A DNA stretch of 30,402 bases from a virus. The stretch is from positions 1 to 30,402 of IMG/VR virus record IMGVR_UViG_3300037485_000819; one strand, given 5' to 3'. How positions within the stretch are numbered: position 1 is the first letter of the stretch; each line of letters opens with the position of its first letter. A program made the position numbers and the translations under genes. The notes under the pieces were generated by a model, which had not been told where the DNA came from, searched no databases, and saw only the letters and a program-made list of their open reading frames with translations. Shown piece after piece: positions 6,861-30,029 of the stretch.

Positions 6861-7023
6861 CACGAACAGAAAAATAATGGTATTGCAATATTATTTTATT
6901 TTCAAAGACGATGGCTTAAAAAACATCGCAATGGATTTGGGGATTGCTTATAATACATTGACAAAAATAGTCGCTGAATATAAAAAAAATGATTGTATTA
7001 TTGTAAAATCAAAATTTTCTTAG
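6838..7023 (+). CDS. Helix-turn-helix protein (61 aa)
   Basis: Residues about 26-47 (GLKNIAMDLGIAYNTLTKIVAE) fit a helix-turn-helix: helix 2 NIAMDLG, a turn, and recognition helix AYNTLTKIVAEY. The flanking regions are basic. It could act as a small transcription regulator within the early operon. The next promoter's -33 region lies inside the end of this gene, so expression of the SSB-like gene can be uncoupled from it. Confidence 0.6.
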   Translation: MNSTKIVNTNRKIMVLQYYFIFKDDGLKNIAMDLGIAYNTLTKIVAEYKKNDCIIVKSKFS

Positions 7024-7031
7024 TATATTTG
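7001..7031 (+). promoter_or_regulatory. Host-type promoter upstream of the SSB-like gene
   Basis: TTG at 7001-7003 and TAtaTTTG at 7024-7031 are separated by 20 bases, a good Bacteroidota vegetative promoter. Transcription would start around 7036-7041, leaving a leader of roughly 55 bases that contains the pseudoknot at 7047-7078. Confidence 0.75.
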
Positions 7032-7046
7032 TTAAATCATAATACC

Positions 7047-7078
7047 GATGCAAGGGGTGGGCATCTTAATTTCACTCC
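7047..7078 (+). promoter_or_regulatory. Predicted H-type pseudoknot in the SSB-like gene leader
   Basis: Stem 1 is GATGC (7047-7051) with GCATC (7061-7065). Stem 2 is GGGGTG (7054-7059) with CACTCC (7073-7078), with one G-U pair. Loop 1 is two A residues, one G lies between the stems, and loop 3 is seven A/U residues (7066-7072). This is textbook H-type geometry. An unstructured A/U-only stretch (7079-7092) follows up to ATG 7095. The layout is like the T4-group gene 32 autoregulatory leader. Folding was done by eye. Confidence 0.6.
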
Positions 7079-7094
7079 ATAAATAAATTAAATT

Positions 7095-7769
7095 ATGAGT
7101 ACAATTTCAAACCGCAAACAAGCTTTTGCACAACCACAAACAAATCCAGCAGCAAAATTTATTGACTGGAAATCAAACGACAAATGTTTCAGTTATTACG
7201 ACAAAGAAACAAAAGAAAATGTCAGTTTGCCTTTGCCTTTTAAATTTTTAGTATTAGACGAATTGCATACCATCAAAGGATGGAACGATGCGACTCAATC
7301 AGCTATTTATTCCAATGAGGTAAAATGGATTTCAAAAGACGAATTAATTGTAAAACCATTTAAAGGAAATGAAATCGCAAAAGGTCTTTACAAAGACATC
7401 AAAGAAAAAGTTAAATCAGCTGGAGCGCATTATGTAAAATCTGTTTATTGTATGTTGGAGGATGGATCAATTGCCAATTTACAACTAAAAGGAGCAGCGT
7501 GTCAATCTTATGGTGATTTCACCGCAAAAACTCGCTCACGTTTGAGTGATGAATGGGTTGAGGTGTCAAGTGCTGCCGAAGGTAAAAAAGGAGCTGTCAA
7601 ATATACGACTCCTGAGTTTAAGTTCCAAAAATGTTTGAGCGATTCTGAAGCTGATTTGGCTGATGAGGCTTTTAATACATTGGAGGCTTATTTAAAAACG
7701 TATCTAATCAAATCCGAACCTGTTGAATCGATTGAAACTGAAATCGAAGAGGATGACTTAGAATTTTAA
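7095..7769 (+). CDS. Putative single-stranded DNA-binding protein (224 aa)
   Basis: The core (about residues 20-130) is rich in predicted beta strands and aromatic residues (FIDWKSNDKCFSYYDK, PLPFKFLVLDELHTIKGWND, SVYCMLEDGSIANLQLKGAA), consistent with an OB-fold-like ssDNA binder. The C-terminus is a flexible, highly acidic tail ending EDDLEF, the hallmark of replication SSBs that recruit partners through an acidic tip with a final Phe. It has its own promoter and a pseudoknot leader and is followed by an intrinsic terminator, so it forms a one-gene unit just upstream of the primase-helicase. I cannot name the family with certainty; a recombination mediator or other replication scaffold is the main alternative. 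Confidence 0.6.
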   Translation: MSTISNRKQAFAQPQTNPAAKFIDWKSNDKCFSYYDKETKENVSLPLPFKFLVLDELHTIKGWNDATQSAIYSNEVKWISKDELIVKPFKGNEIAKGLYKDIKEKVKSAGAHYVKSVYCMLEDGSIANLQLKGAACQSYGDFTAKTRSRLSDEWVEVSSAAEGKKGAVKYTTPEFKFQKCLSDSEADLADEAFNTLEAYLKTYLIKSEPVESIETEIEEDDLEF

Positions 7770-7825: not shown

Positions 7826-7953
7826 GCAATAGTACACATTTTTAGCGTTTTTCTATACACGCCTCGCTGGAGGGTTTTCGATTTGATAGGGGGGGGGTGT
7901 TTTTCCAAAAAAATGTGTACTATGTGTACTATTTAAAAAAATATTAAAAAAAA
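7826..7953. repeat. Intergenic region with 13-bp inverted repeat, 9-bp tandem repeat and G-run (origin/operator candidate)
   Basis: AGTACACATTTTT (7831-7843) is the perfect inverse complement of AAAAATGTGTACT (7909-7921). The 9-mer ATGTGTACT occurs twice in tandem (7913-7921, 7922-7930). A run of nine G lies at 7889-7897, striking in an AT-rich genome. The region then becomes almost pure A/T (7931-7953) before the primase-helicase promoter. No ORF of note is present. Repeats plus an AT-rich stretch beside the replication genes suggest a replication origin or an operator; this is inference. Confidence 0.45.
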
Positions 7954-7987: not shown

Positions 7988-8064
7988 AACTTCGACAATA
8001 TAAGAAAACATTATTAAAAAGGGATAATGAAACCAGTGTCGAAGTTGGTGGATTTATCCCTTTT
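7988..8064 (+). promoter_or_regulatory. Structured leader with interleaved inverted repeats (pseudoknot topology)
   Basis: Arm A AACTTCGACA (7988-7997) is complementary over 10 bp to A' (8037-8046). Arm B AAAAGGGATAA (8017-8027) is complementary over 11 bp to B' (8054-8064). The order A-B-A'-B' means that both stems together make a pseudoknot, or that two hairpins compete. B' ends 15 bases before ATG 8080, so folding could control translation, and the T-rich bases after B' leave room for attenuation. Confidence 0.6.
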
Positions 8065-8079
8065 AACTTTTTAAAAAAT

Positions 8080-10404
8080 ATGATAGTATCAGTATTTAAG
8101 GATTTGTATAAATCCACAGATGTACCTTTTCACGTTCCAATCGATAAAATTATCAATAGGATTAAAAAAGGAGCTTCAAAGGAATTGGTTGAATCAATCC
8201 GAAGTGGAGCAAAAGAACAAAAAACAAAATTACCTTGCATTTTATTTGCAGGAATTTTTAATGAGCGTAATTCAAACTCACTCCAGGAACATTCAGGGCT
8301 TATGGTTGTCGATTTTGATAAATATCCTAATCAGGAAACTATGCTCCAACATTTGGAACTATTAAAAGAAAATAAACATTTTTGCTTACTTTTTATAAGT
8401 CCTTCAGGAAATGGAATAAAAGGGGTTTTAAAGGTGTCAAATGAATTAACGAAGGAAACACATCCCAAAACATTTAAAGAGTTCCAAAAGCAATATAACT
8501 ACGATTATTTTGACATCGCCAATTCAAATGTTGACAGGGTTTGTTTTGAATCTTACGATCCAAATATTTATGTTAATTTAGAAGCTGAAATTTTCAATCC
8601 AATTTTAAAGGATGAGGGTTTTAATGTTTCGGAGCGTGTGCCTCTTTTACCAATTACCGATGAGGATAAGATTATCGCTAAAATAATGGAATGGAATTGG
8701 AACAAAGATTTTCGCGAAGGTGAGCGCAACGCTTTTATATTTGATTTGGCTGGAGCGTTTTGTGAATATGGAATCACTCAGTCAACAGCCGAAGGATATA
8801 TTTTTAATAATGTGGTAATCGGTGATTTTTCAGAAACCGAAACAAAGACAACAATCAAATCGGCATATCGAAAACGAAATTTTGATACTAAGTATTTTGA
8901 GAATTATAATAAAATTGACTCCATAAAAGCCGACCTTAAAAAAGGCAAAAATGAAGTAATTGGCAAATACGGTATTTCGGAGGGTACATTCAACGAAATA
9001 AAGGAAGCATCCGAACACGAAGACTTTTGGTATTTTACAGAAAATAAAAAGATTGGAATCAATCCAATGAAATACAAATTGTTTTTGGAGCGAAACGGAT
9101 TTAAAAAATACTTTCAATCCGATGCACAGAAGGCAACGTGGATTTATATTAGTTCTAATAAGGTAATCGAAACCTCAACTGAAAAAATTAAAGATTTTGT
9201 TTTAAACTATTTGACTGAGCGTTCCGAAATTGATGTGTGGAATTATTGCGCATCGTTTCAAAACCTATTTTCTGAGGGTTATTTGTCAATGATTGACAGC
9301 GTTGATTTACTAATGCTAAAAGATACCAAATTTAAATCCTTTATAGCTTTTGAAAATGGCATCTTAGAAGTTACCAAAGACATCGTTAAATTAATCGACT
9401 ATATCGATGTGGATGGTTATGTTTGGAAGTCACAAATTATCCAGCGCGATTTTATTATTTTGGATAATTTAGAAAATGAATACAAAACTTTTATAAATAA
9501 TATCAGTAGCAATGAGCCAATCGCTATCGAGTGCGTAATTGGATACCTTTTAAGCACCTATAAAAATAAAATGAATAACAAGGCTATAATCTTAAACGAT
9601 GAGGTTATAAGCGAAAATCCTGAAGGCGGAACAGGGAAGGGATTATTTGTTCAGGGTTTAAAACAAATCCGAAATATATCGATTTTGGATGGTAAAAGTT
9701 TTGACGATAAAAAATCGTTCCCTTACCAAACTGTTTCACCTGAAACTCAAGTACTGGTCTTTGACGATGTTAAAAAGAATTTTGACTTTGAGAGCAAATT
9801 TAGTTTGGTTACCGAAGGAATTACATTGGAGCGTAAAAACAAAGATGCTATTAAATTAAAAGTCGAGGAAAGTCCTAAAATGATTTTGAGTACAAATTAT
9901 GCAATCAAAGGCGAGGGTAATTCTCACGACAGACGAAGACACGAAATCGAATTTGCACAATTTTATGGCAAGGCTTTGACTCCATACGATGATTTTAATC
10001 GTCAACTATTTGATGATTGGGATGATTTGGATTTTCAAAGGTTCGATAATTATATGGTTTATTGCTTACAATCATTTTTGAAAATGGGCTTAGTTCCTCA
10101 AAATGCTAAAAATATTAAAATGCGTAAATTTATCGCTGAAACCTCGATGGAGTTTTTAGAATGGGTAAAAGACAAAGAAAATGTGATGCACAACGATAGA
10201 CTTGAGAAATCGGTATATTTTACCAATTTTACTAACGATTATCAGGATTATAAAAAATGGCTCACGAATAAGAAATTTAATATTTGGGTTCAAAAGTACT
10301 GCAACTTCATAGGAGCTGAATATTTGGAAGGAAACACAAACGGGATGCGATGGTTTACAATTAAAACAGGTCAACTTAACGAGGTTGACGATATAGCCTT
10401 TTAA
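8080..10404 (+). CDS. Replicative primase-helicase: VirE-N/prim-pol-like N-domain with SF3 helicase (774 aa)
   Basis: The N-terminal ~170 residues resemble the VirE-N/BT4734-like module (KLPCILFAGIF, HSGLMVVDFDKY, LLFISPSGNGIKGVLKV) associated with archaeo-eukaryotic-type primases. A linker domain follows (RNAFIFDLAGAFCEYG). The C-terminal half is an SF3/DUF5906-type helicase: Walker A GGTGKG with Lys520, Walker B VLVFDD (Asp562-Asp563), a sensor-like ILSTN ending at Asn606 and the arginine cluster HDRRRHE (618-620). It should prime and unwind phage DNA at the origin. No phage DNA polymerase is present, so the host replisome is presumably recruited. It follows a promoter, a structured leader and the repeat-rich gap at 7826-7953. 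Confidence 0.85.
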   Translation: MIVSVFKDLYKSTDVPFHVPIDKIINRIKKGASKELVESIRSGAKEQKTKLPCILFAGIFNERNSNSLQEHSGLMVVDFDKYPNQETMLQHLELLKENKHFCLLFISPSGNGIKGVLKVSNELTKETHPKTFKEFQKQYNYDYFDIANSNVDRVCFESYDPNIYVNLEAEIFNPILKDEGFNVSERVPLLPITDEDKIIAKIMEWNWNKDFREGERNAFIFDLAGAFCEYGITQSTAEGYIFNNVVIGDFSETETKTTIKSAYRKRNFDTKYFENYNKIDSIKADLKKGKNEVIGKYGISEGTFNEIKEASEHEDFWYFTENKKIGINPMKYKLFLERNGFKKYFQSDAQKATWIYISSNKVIETSTEKIKDFVLNYLTERSEIDVWNYCASFQNLFSEGYLSMIDSVDLLMLKDTKFKSFIAFENGILEVTKDIVKLIDYIDVDGYVWKSQIIQRDFIILDNLENEYKTFINNISSNEPIAIECVIGYLLSTYKNKMNNKAIILNDEVISENPEGGTGKGLFVQGLKQIRNISILDGKSFDDKKSFPYQTVSPETQVLVFDDVKKNFDFESKFSLVTEGITLERKNKDAIKLKVEESPKMILSTNYAIKGEGNSHDRRRHEIEFAQFYGKALTPYDDFNRQLFDDWDDLDFQRFDNYMVYCLQSFLKMGLVPQNAKNIKMRKFIAETSMEFLEWVKDKENVMHNDRLEKSVYFTNFTNDYQDYKKWLTNKKFNIWVQKYCNFIGAEYLEGNTNGMRWFTIKTGQLNEVDDIAF

Positions 10405-29644: not shown

Positions 29645-29779
29645 ATGAGAAAAATTGATAAAAGAACAGAGGAAAATATTAAAAAATTAAAACTATTTTT
29701 AACAAATGGCATCGACACTAAACTTCACGACAAAAAGAGGGGACACGTTCAAACAAACCGACTTTCAAATAAACATTAA
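29645..29779 (+). CDS. Possible small basic protein (44 aa)
   Basis: ATG 29645 to TAA 29777-29779. The product is Lys/Arg-rich (MRKIDKRTEENIKKLKLFL). It starts 3 bases after the connector gene, in line with the tight packing here, but overlaps the following BppU-like gene by 74 bases and its second half is an alternative reading of that gene. It may be only a short leader peptide or not a gene. Confidence 0.3.
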   Translation: MRKIDKRTEENIKKLKLFLTNGIDTKLHDKKRGHVQTNRLSNKH

Positions 29780-30029
29780 TACATTCCCTTTGGATTTAAC
29801 CGATGGTGATGTAAAAATCCAACTTCGTAAAGAGCCTGGAGGGATTGTCGCATACACTCCAACAATTACAATTTTTGATCCGACAAATGGTGAGTTTTGT
29901 ATTGATGAGCAAATTATCGATATTCAGGCTTGCGATTATAGATACGATATTCAGGTTACACTTGAGAGCGGTGAGGTTAATACTTGGGTGAGTGGGATTT
30001 TTTCAATAACAGATGACATTACACGATAA
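29706..30029 (+). CDS. BppU-like baseplate/fibre N-domain protein, complete copy (107 aa)
   Basis: This is the complete version of the truncated gene at 1-278. It starts MASTLNFTTKRGDTFKQTDFQININ, the KRGDTF...F-x-I opening typical of BppU-like N-domains, followed by FPLDLTDGDVKIQLRK and DPTNGEFCIDEQI. It is a small beta-sandwich protein that probably anchors the receptor-binding fibre. It differs from the left copy at six bases (one amino-acid change). It is followed after 3 bases by the second version of the tail fibre. Confidence 0.7.
   Translation: MASTLNFTTKRGDTFKQTDFQININTFPLDLTDGDVKIQLRKEPGGIVAYTPTITIFDPTNGEFCIDEQIIDIQACDYRYDIQVTLESGEVNTWVSGIFSITDDITR

Follow-up and report, generated by a model that had tools for sequence, protein, structure and literature searches.

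How can a single-stranded DNA-binding protein (SSB), which binds any single strand, select one mRNA? This question is raised again by the viral record IMGVR_UViG_3300037485_000819, of which we analysed positions 1–30,402 (the window, 30,402 bases; all coordinates follow its numbering). In this window, a pseudoknot at 7047–7078 lies in the leader of a gene at 7095–7769 that encodes an SSB-like protein. An initial annotation had proposed that an unrelated SSB of a Bacteroidota phage uses the autoregulatory design of gene 32 of phage T4. In T4, free gp32 represses its own translation and is relieved of this role by single-stranded DNA (ssDNA); the operator consists of a 5′-terminal pseudoknot and UUAAA/UAAA repeats over the start site, both of which are essential (PMC535899, PMC3014915).

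The leader contains an H-type pseudoknot

We found that positions 7047–7078 form an H-type pseudoknot with the geometry 5/2/7/0/6/7, made up of the following parts.

7047–7051, + strand: 5′ strand of stem 1, GATGC; all 5 pairs show double-sided changes among homologs, and 100% of cells are paired
7052–7053, + strand: loop 1, AA, which crosses stem 2; AA in 79 of 82 distinct leaders
7054–7060, + strand: 5′ strand of stem 2, GGGGTGG, 7 bp; the pair 7060–7072 occurs as A-U, G-C, G-U and C-G, with zero mismatches
7061–7065, + strand: 3′ strand of stem 1, GCATC; pairs with 7047–7051, with covariation
7066–7071, + strand: loop 3, TTAATT, which crosses stem 1; nearly all leaders have 6 nt here, in most cases TTAATT or TTCATT
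7072–7078, + strand: 3′ strand of stem 2, TCACTCC; 5 of 7 pairs show double-sided changes, and 97.3% of cells are paired

The two interleaved stems that had been annotated here are both present, stem 1 as listed and stem 2 as GGGGTG (7054–7059) with CACTCC (7073–7078), and the 2-nt loop 1 was borne out by the AA at 7052–7053. The annotation had also left one base between the stems and given loop 3 a length of 7 nt, which had to be revised. Position 7060 (G in the window) pairs with 7072 (U), and homologs carry this pair as A-U (25), G-C (15), G-U (15) or C-G (8). Because the two positions covary, stem 2 has 7 bp (7054–7060/7072–7078), the stems abut without a junction base and loop 3 has a length of 6 nt. 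A 7-bp stem 2 brings the knot nearer to that of T2 and T4, in which the longer helix is also 7 bp (PMC5684407).

The perfect 5-2-7-0-6-7 arrangement with all 12 pairs occurs once in the window, at 7047. Dinucleotide shuffles yielded 0.28 such arrangements per 30.4-kb strand by chance, and 0 of 60 shuffles contained one with the AAGG core. When the 90 nt 5′ of the start codon were scanned with flexible geometry, none of 100 shuffles gave an equally good structure. Applied to the T4 leader, the same scan recovered the known pseudoknot (4-bp stem 1 TGCC/GGTA and 7-bp stem 2, from −67; 0 of 100 shuffles as good), which makes it a fair test. No Rfam family, including riboswitch and leader families such as preQ1, SAM-II and STAXI, matched the leader at the gathering threshold, and nothing sensible appeared at E values up to 10.

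Both stems covary across homologous phages

The homolog set comprised 80 viral contigs that encode close relatives of the protein, and two further searches brought in more distant relatives. The knot was present in nearly every leader of the Bacteroidota clade. In an almost gap-free alignment of 63 distinct leaders (A3), 98.4% of 756 pair cells held standard pairs, and 10 of the 12 pairs had changed on both sides (5 of 5 in stem 1 and 5 of 7 in stem 2). Double-changed cells numbered 154, compared with 30.3 in shuffles. The covariation score was 0.683, compared with 0.188 for shuffled alignments and at most 0.168 when the partners were slid by 1–3 columns; the slid control is somewhat flattering because the structure was read from one member, and the double changes are independent of that. 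Across 119 loci we counted 13 versions of stem 1 (including GATGC, GCAGC, GCTCG, GTTGG, AGGGT, GGAGC, GGGGT, GAGGT, AATGG and GCAGG) and 41 of stem 2, leaving out one extra 'stem 1' from L040, a contig that begins inside the knot. Near-invariance was confined to the AA of loop 1, to the first two G-C pairs and to some of the letters of loop 3. On a protein tree whose weak branches had been collapsed, stem 1 must have changed at least 26 times and stem 2 at least 53 times. Covariation in homologous phages had been named beforehand as the check on the structure, and these tree changes, together with the 10 of 12 pairs, argue strongly for it. The pseudoknot observation is confirmed, on evidence stronger than that on which it was first put forward.

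G-U pairs occupied 74 of 984 cells, which points to an RNA rather than a DNA element. A DNA element, whether a replication origin, a protein site or an ssDNA fold, might be expected from the position of the gene in a replication module, and STAXI pseudoknots near SSB genes have been proposed to act as ssDNA (PMC2864571). However, G-U pairs occur at most positions, the orientation and the distance to the start codon (14–22 nt) are fixed, and there is a single copy of the knot per locus, so that we regard a function in DNA as very improbable.

A variant knot was also seen in L209, a relative with 49% identity, about 48 nt before the start codon. Its geometry is 4/2/7/0/4/7, with a 4-bp stem 1 (GCCC/GGGC), an AA loop, a 7-bp stem 2 (GCGCTTC/GAAGCGT) and a 4-nt loop 3, and 0 of 100 shuffles were as good.

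The element is specific to one gene

Using DNA alone and no protein information, we searched 2.9 million viral contigs for a pattern built on the commonest stem 1, and 98 stretches matched. Among the matches listed (80 of 98), all 80 precede the SSB-like gene. A second pattern, from which the commonest stem 1 was excluded, gave 35 matches. Stem 1 was intact in 11 of these, 10 of which precede this gene and one of which lies at a contig end; none of the other 24 matches precedes it. Among 296 genomes of the same phylum, Bacteroidota, there were four matches to the pattern, and inspection by eye showed that the stems formed in none of these. Because the motif was found only before one gene, the element belongs to that gene rather than being a general riboswitch or the mark of a regulon. 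This gene-specific association fits autoregulation.

A genuine RNA element could also be read by some other factor, such as a small ligand or a protein from the host or from another phage gene, that controls translation of the gene. Compact H-type pseudoknots also serve as riboswitches. They act as ribosomal-protein operators as well, as in the S15 operator (PMC3014915). Against such a reader, Rfam returned no match, the near-invariant letters given above offer no obvious ligand core, and, unlike a regulon, the motif did not turn up at any further gene, either in the phages or in the 296 genomes of the phylum. We therefore consider control by another factor unlikely.

The knot lies between a promoter and an A/U-only spacer

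Three further features, read from the sequence, flank the knot and the gene.

7024–7031, + strand: Bacteroidota-type −7 box TATATTTG (TAnnTTTG), with an implied transcript start at about 7036–7041
7079–7094, + strand: A/T-only spacer ATAAATAAATTAAATT, with UAAA, UAAA and UUAAA, up to the start codon
7798–7825, + strand: terminator-like hairpin CCTCACTT-GCAA-AAGTGGGG followed by T8

Two of these agree with what had been annotated, a host-type promoter before the leader and an A/U-only stretch up to the ATG at 7095. Of 82 distinct leaders, 47 have a TAnnTT[T/A]G box at 15–16 nt before the knot, and 27 have no matching box. At this distance from the box, the knot would sit at the 5′ end of the mRNA. 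Such a position, where the box is present, would suit a constitutive element that shields the mRNA 5′ end or keeps the start site open without any regulation, and the A/U spacer would make a good open start site. However, six leaders (L070, L071, L202, L208, L220 and L222) keep the knot close behind an upstream reading frame where no promoter box was seen, which indicates that the knot need not be 5′-terminal, and the strict 5/2/7/0/6/7 geometry with its fixed loop exceeds what protection needs. A purely constitutive role is in our view quite unlikely.

The spacer between knot and AUG is 14–22 nt long and A/U-rich in the homologs, one contig-end artefact aside. TAAA units numbered 152 in the 82 leaders, compared with 107 in shuffles (shuffle maximum, 122). 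A hairpin and T-run follow the gene in most of the homologs displayed; with this terminator-like hairpin, the mRNA would be monocistronic. We also observed conservation in the stretch between promoter and knot (7036–7046, TCATAATAAC), which resembles the one that follows the knot (CCATAAATAA).

The downstream protein is predicted to be an SSB

The gene and its tail are as follows.

7095–7769, + strand: SSB-like protein of 224 amino acids (aa), PHROG 6706 (function not annotated; phrog_6706, E 1.9e-32), with an AlphaFold2 (AF2) model compared by VIA-align
7713–7766, + strand: disordered acidic C-terminal tail (residues 207–224), net charge about −8, ending EEDDLEF; predicted local distance difference test (pLDDT) score <50

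PHROG 6706 was the sole family matched, and the protein had no match in Pfam or NCBIfam. An AF2 model built with a diverse alignment (pLDDT 83; predicted template modelling score, 0.78) superseded a first model (pLDDT 70), and the top VIA-align match was identical for both. This was the core of RB69 gp32 (2a1k_B), with Z scores of 6.9 and 6.8 over 112–124 residues at a root-mean-square deviation of 4.5–5.6. The recombination directionality factor gp3 of phiC31 came second, followed mostly by oligonucleotide/oligosaccharide-binding (OB) folds such as RPA, nearly all with Z <5. A sequence search of the PDB brought up only a phosphorylase, with E 1.3e-3 for one profile and 0.17 for a broader one; this weak match was taken as chance.

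The acidic tail EDDLEF that had been pointed out earlier is there, as the product of the open reading frame (ORF) at 7095–7769 ends in EIEEDDLEF and the tail is predicted to be disordered. Within the clade, C-termini are mostly DDLDF or DDLEF, with one DEIPF, and those of distant relatives are DEDIPF, DVPF and PPF. Tips of the DEDIPF, DVPF or PPF type are known from bacterial SSBs. The next large gene in the window encodes a primase-helicase (ORF 8080–10404), and the homologous gene of the mycobacteriophages Gaia and Lucky2013, whose annotation is hypothetical, lies directly before a DNA primase/polymerase gene. Taken together, the predicted fold, the acidic tail and tips and the primase neighbour make it very likely that 7095–7769 encodes an SSB. 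The earlier description of the product as SSB-like thus agrees with the modelled fold, the C-terminal tip and the adjoining primase in both phage groups, with DNA binding as a prediction.

PHROG 6706 members that carry the annotation 'hypothetical' and end in PPF, APF, DVPF or DEDIPF lie beside primase genes in mycobacteriophages and other actinobacteriophage-like contigs (L082, L083 and L164–L173). These actinobacteriophage proteins look like unrecognised SSBs. The analysis as a whole suggests a probable function for PHROG 6706, a family found in mycobacteriophages also.

Autogenous repression as a model for the leader

We consider autogenous translational repression the best explanation for the leader, and a probable one. 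In this model, a mostly monocistronic mRNA would fold at its 5′ end into the H-type pseudoknot 14–22 nt before the start codon, with unstructured UAAA-rich RNA in between. The probable SSB would first coat replicating phage DNA. Once in excess of the available ssDNA, it would bind the pseudoknot and the A/U spacer, cover the start site and stop its own translation, and ssDNA that draws the protein away would relieve this repression, as in T4. The binding, the repression and the sensing of ssDNA in this scheme are modelled on the T4 precedent. Because the distance from knot to AUG is so short, a protein on the knot would probably itself cover the start site.

Several observations weigh against this explanation. 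The Z score of 6.8 is middling, inside the range reached by unrelated models, and values of Z <8 are not decisive. Foldseek searches of the PDB with both AF2 models returned nothing significant (best E, 5e-3 and 6e-2), and the protein core is only weakly basic (net +1). The spacer is 16 nt compared with 39 in T4, so that cooperative spreading may be unneeded or may not occur. A-rich stretches before the start codon are common in Bacteroidota, which makes the UAAA repeats weak evidence when taken alone.

The pseudoknot probably arose independently of T4

We found no kinship by hhalign between the SSB-like protein and T4 gp32 alone or a 7-member gp32 alignment (probability 0.1% over 14 columns for the latter), and in a 32-member alignment of the protein no Cys or His that could mark a zinc site was invariant, or even nearly so. 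The claim that this SSB is unrelated to gp32 therefore holds at the level of sequence; by structure the best match is still RB69 gp32, and a remote common origin of the two proteins is possible on the basis of the models.

For the RNA, the flexible leader scan found no pseudoknot before actinobacteriophage and other distant homologs (L164, L165, L172 and L175–L177), and no convincing knot in most gp32 leaders of distant T4 relatives. The pseudoknot is also reported to be missing in the T4 relative RB49 (PMC535899). With the knot not found in the scanned non-Bacteroidota relatives and reported missing in RB49, it is simpler to assume a separate origin for the RNA. The pseudoknot RNA thus probably arose independently of T4, and one design of SSB control seems to have arisen twice. 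As regards the convergent operator of the initial annotation, the knot does look independently acquired, and the repression is argued by analogy with T4. We regard as evenly balanced the wider proposal that a T4-like SSB operator arose independently in Bacteroidota phages, for a protein without sequence kinship to gp32, as a recurrent solution to SSB dosage, and that the phage may also place the adjoining primase under pseudoknot control, through a second, larger leader (described below).

Our literature searches, which left most subscription journals outside, returned no report of this element. The papers searched describe neither the RNA family nor the phage group and protein family to which it belongs; the design was already known from T4. 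If confirmed, this would be an RNA operator that evolved more than once.

Neighbouring elements and host

A second interleaved helix pair, pseudoknot-like and larger than the first, lies before the primase-helicase ORF, at 7988–7997/8037–8046 (AACTTCGACA/TGTCGAAGTT, 10 bp) and 8017–8027/8054–8064 (AAAAGGGATAA/TTATCCCTTTT, 11 bp). Most homologous loci showed this A-B-A′-B′ arrangement, with scores of 39.5–55.5 compared with a shuffle maximum of 36.5. There are at least eight unrelated sequence versions, and closely related phages carry different ones, as if the element had been swapped. The 3′ helix is followed by U-rich RNA, as in a terminator. Rfam gave only a sub-threshold match to RT-14 for this leader (23.3 bits, E 0.14). 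Between the SSB-like gene and the second leader, the stretch at 7840–7940 is AT-rich and holds an imperfect inverted repeat (AGTACACATTTT ... AAAATGTGTACT) that flanks a G run (GGGGGGGGG); the stretch is similar in most homologs and could be a replication origin.

The record ends (39–278 and 29767–30029) encode a near-identical protein stretch (DSGEVN and ESGEVN), so that the genome is probably circular or permuted, with an imperfect overlap of the record ends that perhaps comes from mixed strains. The terminase shares 54% identity with that of Flavobacterium phages, the sole match among genome contigs was a Bacteroidetes metagenome-assembled genome, and no close relative of the SSB-like protein was found in the cultured phages of the collection searched. 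Together with the Bacteroidota-type promoter box, the terminase and the genome match indicate that the phage most likely infects a member of the Bacteroidota, perhaps one of the flavobacteria.

Comparison with known systems

M13 gp5 is an SSB that acts as an mRNA-specific repressor (PMC535899), the role proposed here, but its target, the gene 2 mRNA, is the message of another gene. The STAXI RNA motif likewise consists of pseudoknots near genes for ssDNA-binding proteins; it is a tandem of two or three, whereas the knot described here is single and without an Rfam match. The phiC31 factor gp3 (9teh_I) was the second-best structural match (Z 6.4–6.6 over 137–156 residues) and the top Foldseek match of the first AF2 model, but sequence kinship was not found. 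The modelled structures suggest that gp3-type factors share the fold of the SSB-like protein and may derive from SSBs.

With the gp32 family, the protein shares an acidic C-terminal tail and, in both AF2 models, its best structural match, the RB69 gp32 core, at a middling Z that would also allow a merely common OB arrangement. By contrast, it has 224 aa rather than 301 and lacks an invariant Cys/His zinc set. The gene 32 operator of T4, T2 and RB69 is the closest parallel to the leader. Both have an H-type knot at the 5′ end of an SSB mRNA (the product being a predicted SSB here), with stems of about 5 and 7 bp that abut, a loop 1 of 1–2 nt and a short A-rich loop over stem 1, followed by unstructured UAAA/UUAAA RNA up to the start codon. 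Measured in the same terms, the T4 leader is 4/1/7/0/5/7, with 39 nt to the AUG. The element described here differs in phage lineage, host phylum and knot sequence, in its spacer of 14–22 nt compared with about 39, in having no evident Shine–Dalgarno sequence and in a protein without detectable sequence kinship to gp32; repression is proposed here by analogy.

The gene 32 operator is a textbook case known only from T4 and its close relatives. Here an unrelated, second family contributes about 50 natural pseudoknot sequences of constant geometry, comparative data that T4 never gave, and these reveal which features are invariant: the abutting stems of 5 and 7 bp, the AA loop and the fixed distance to the AUG, with the others free to vary.
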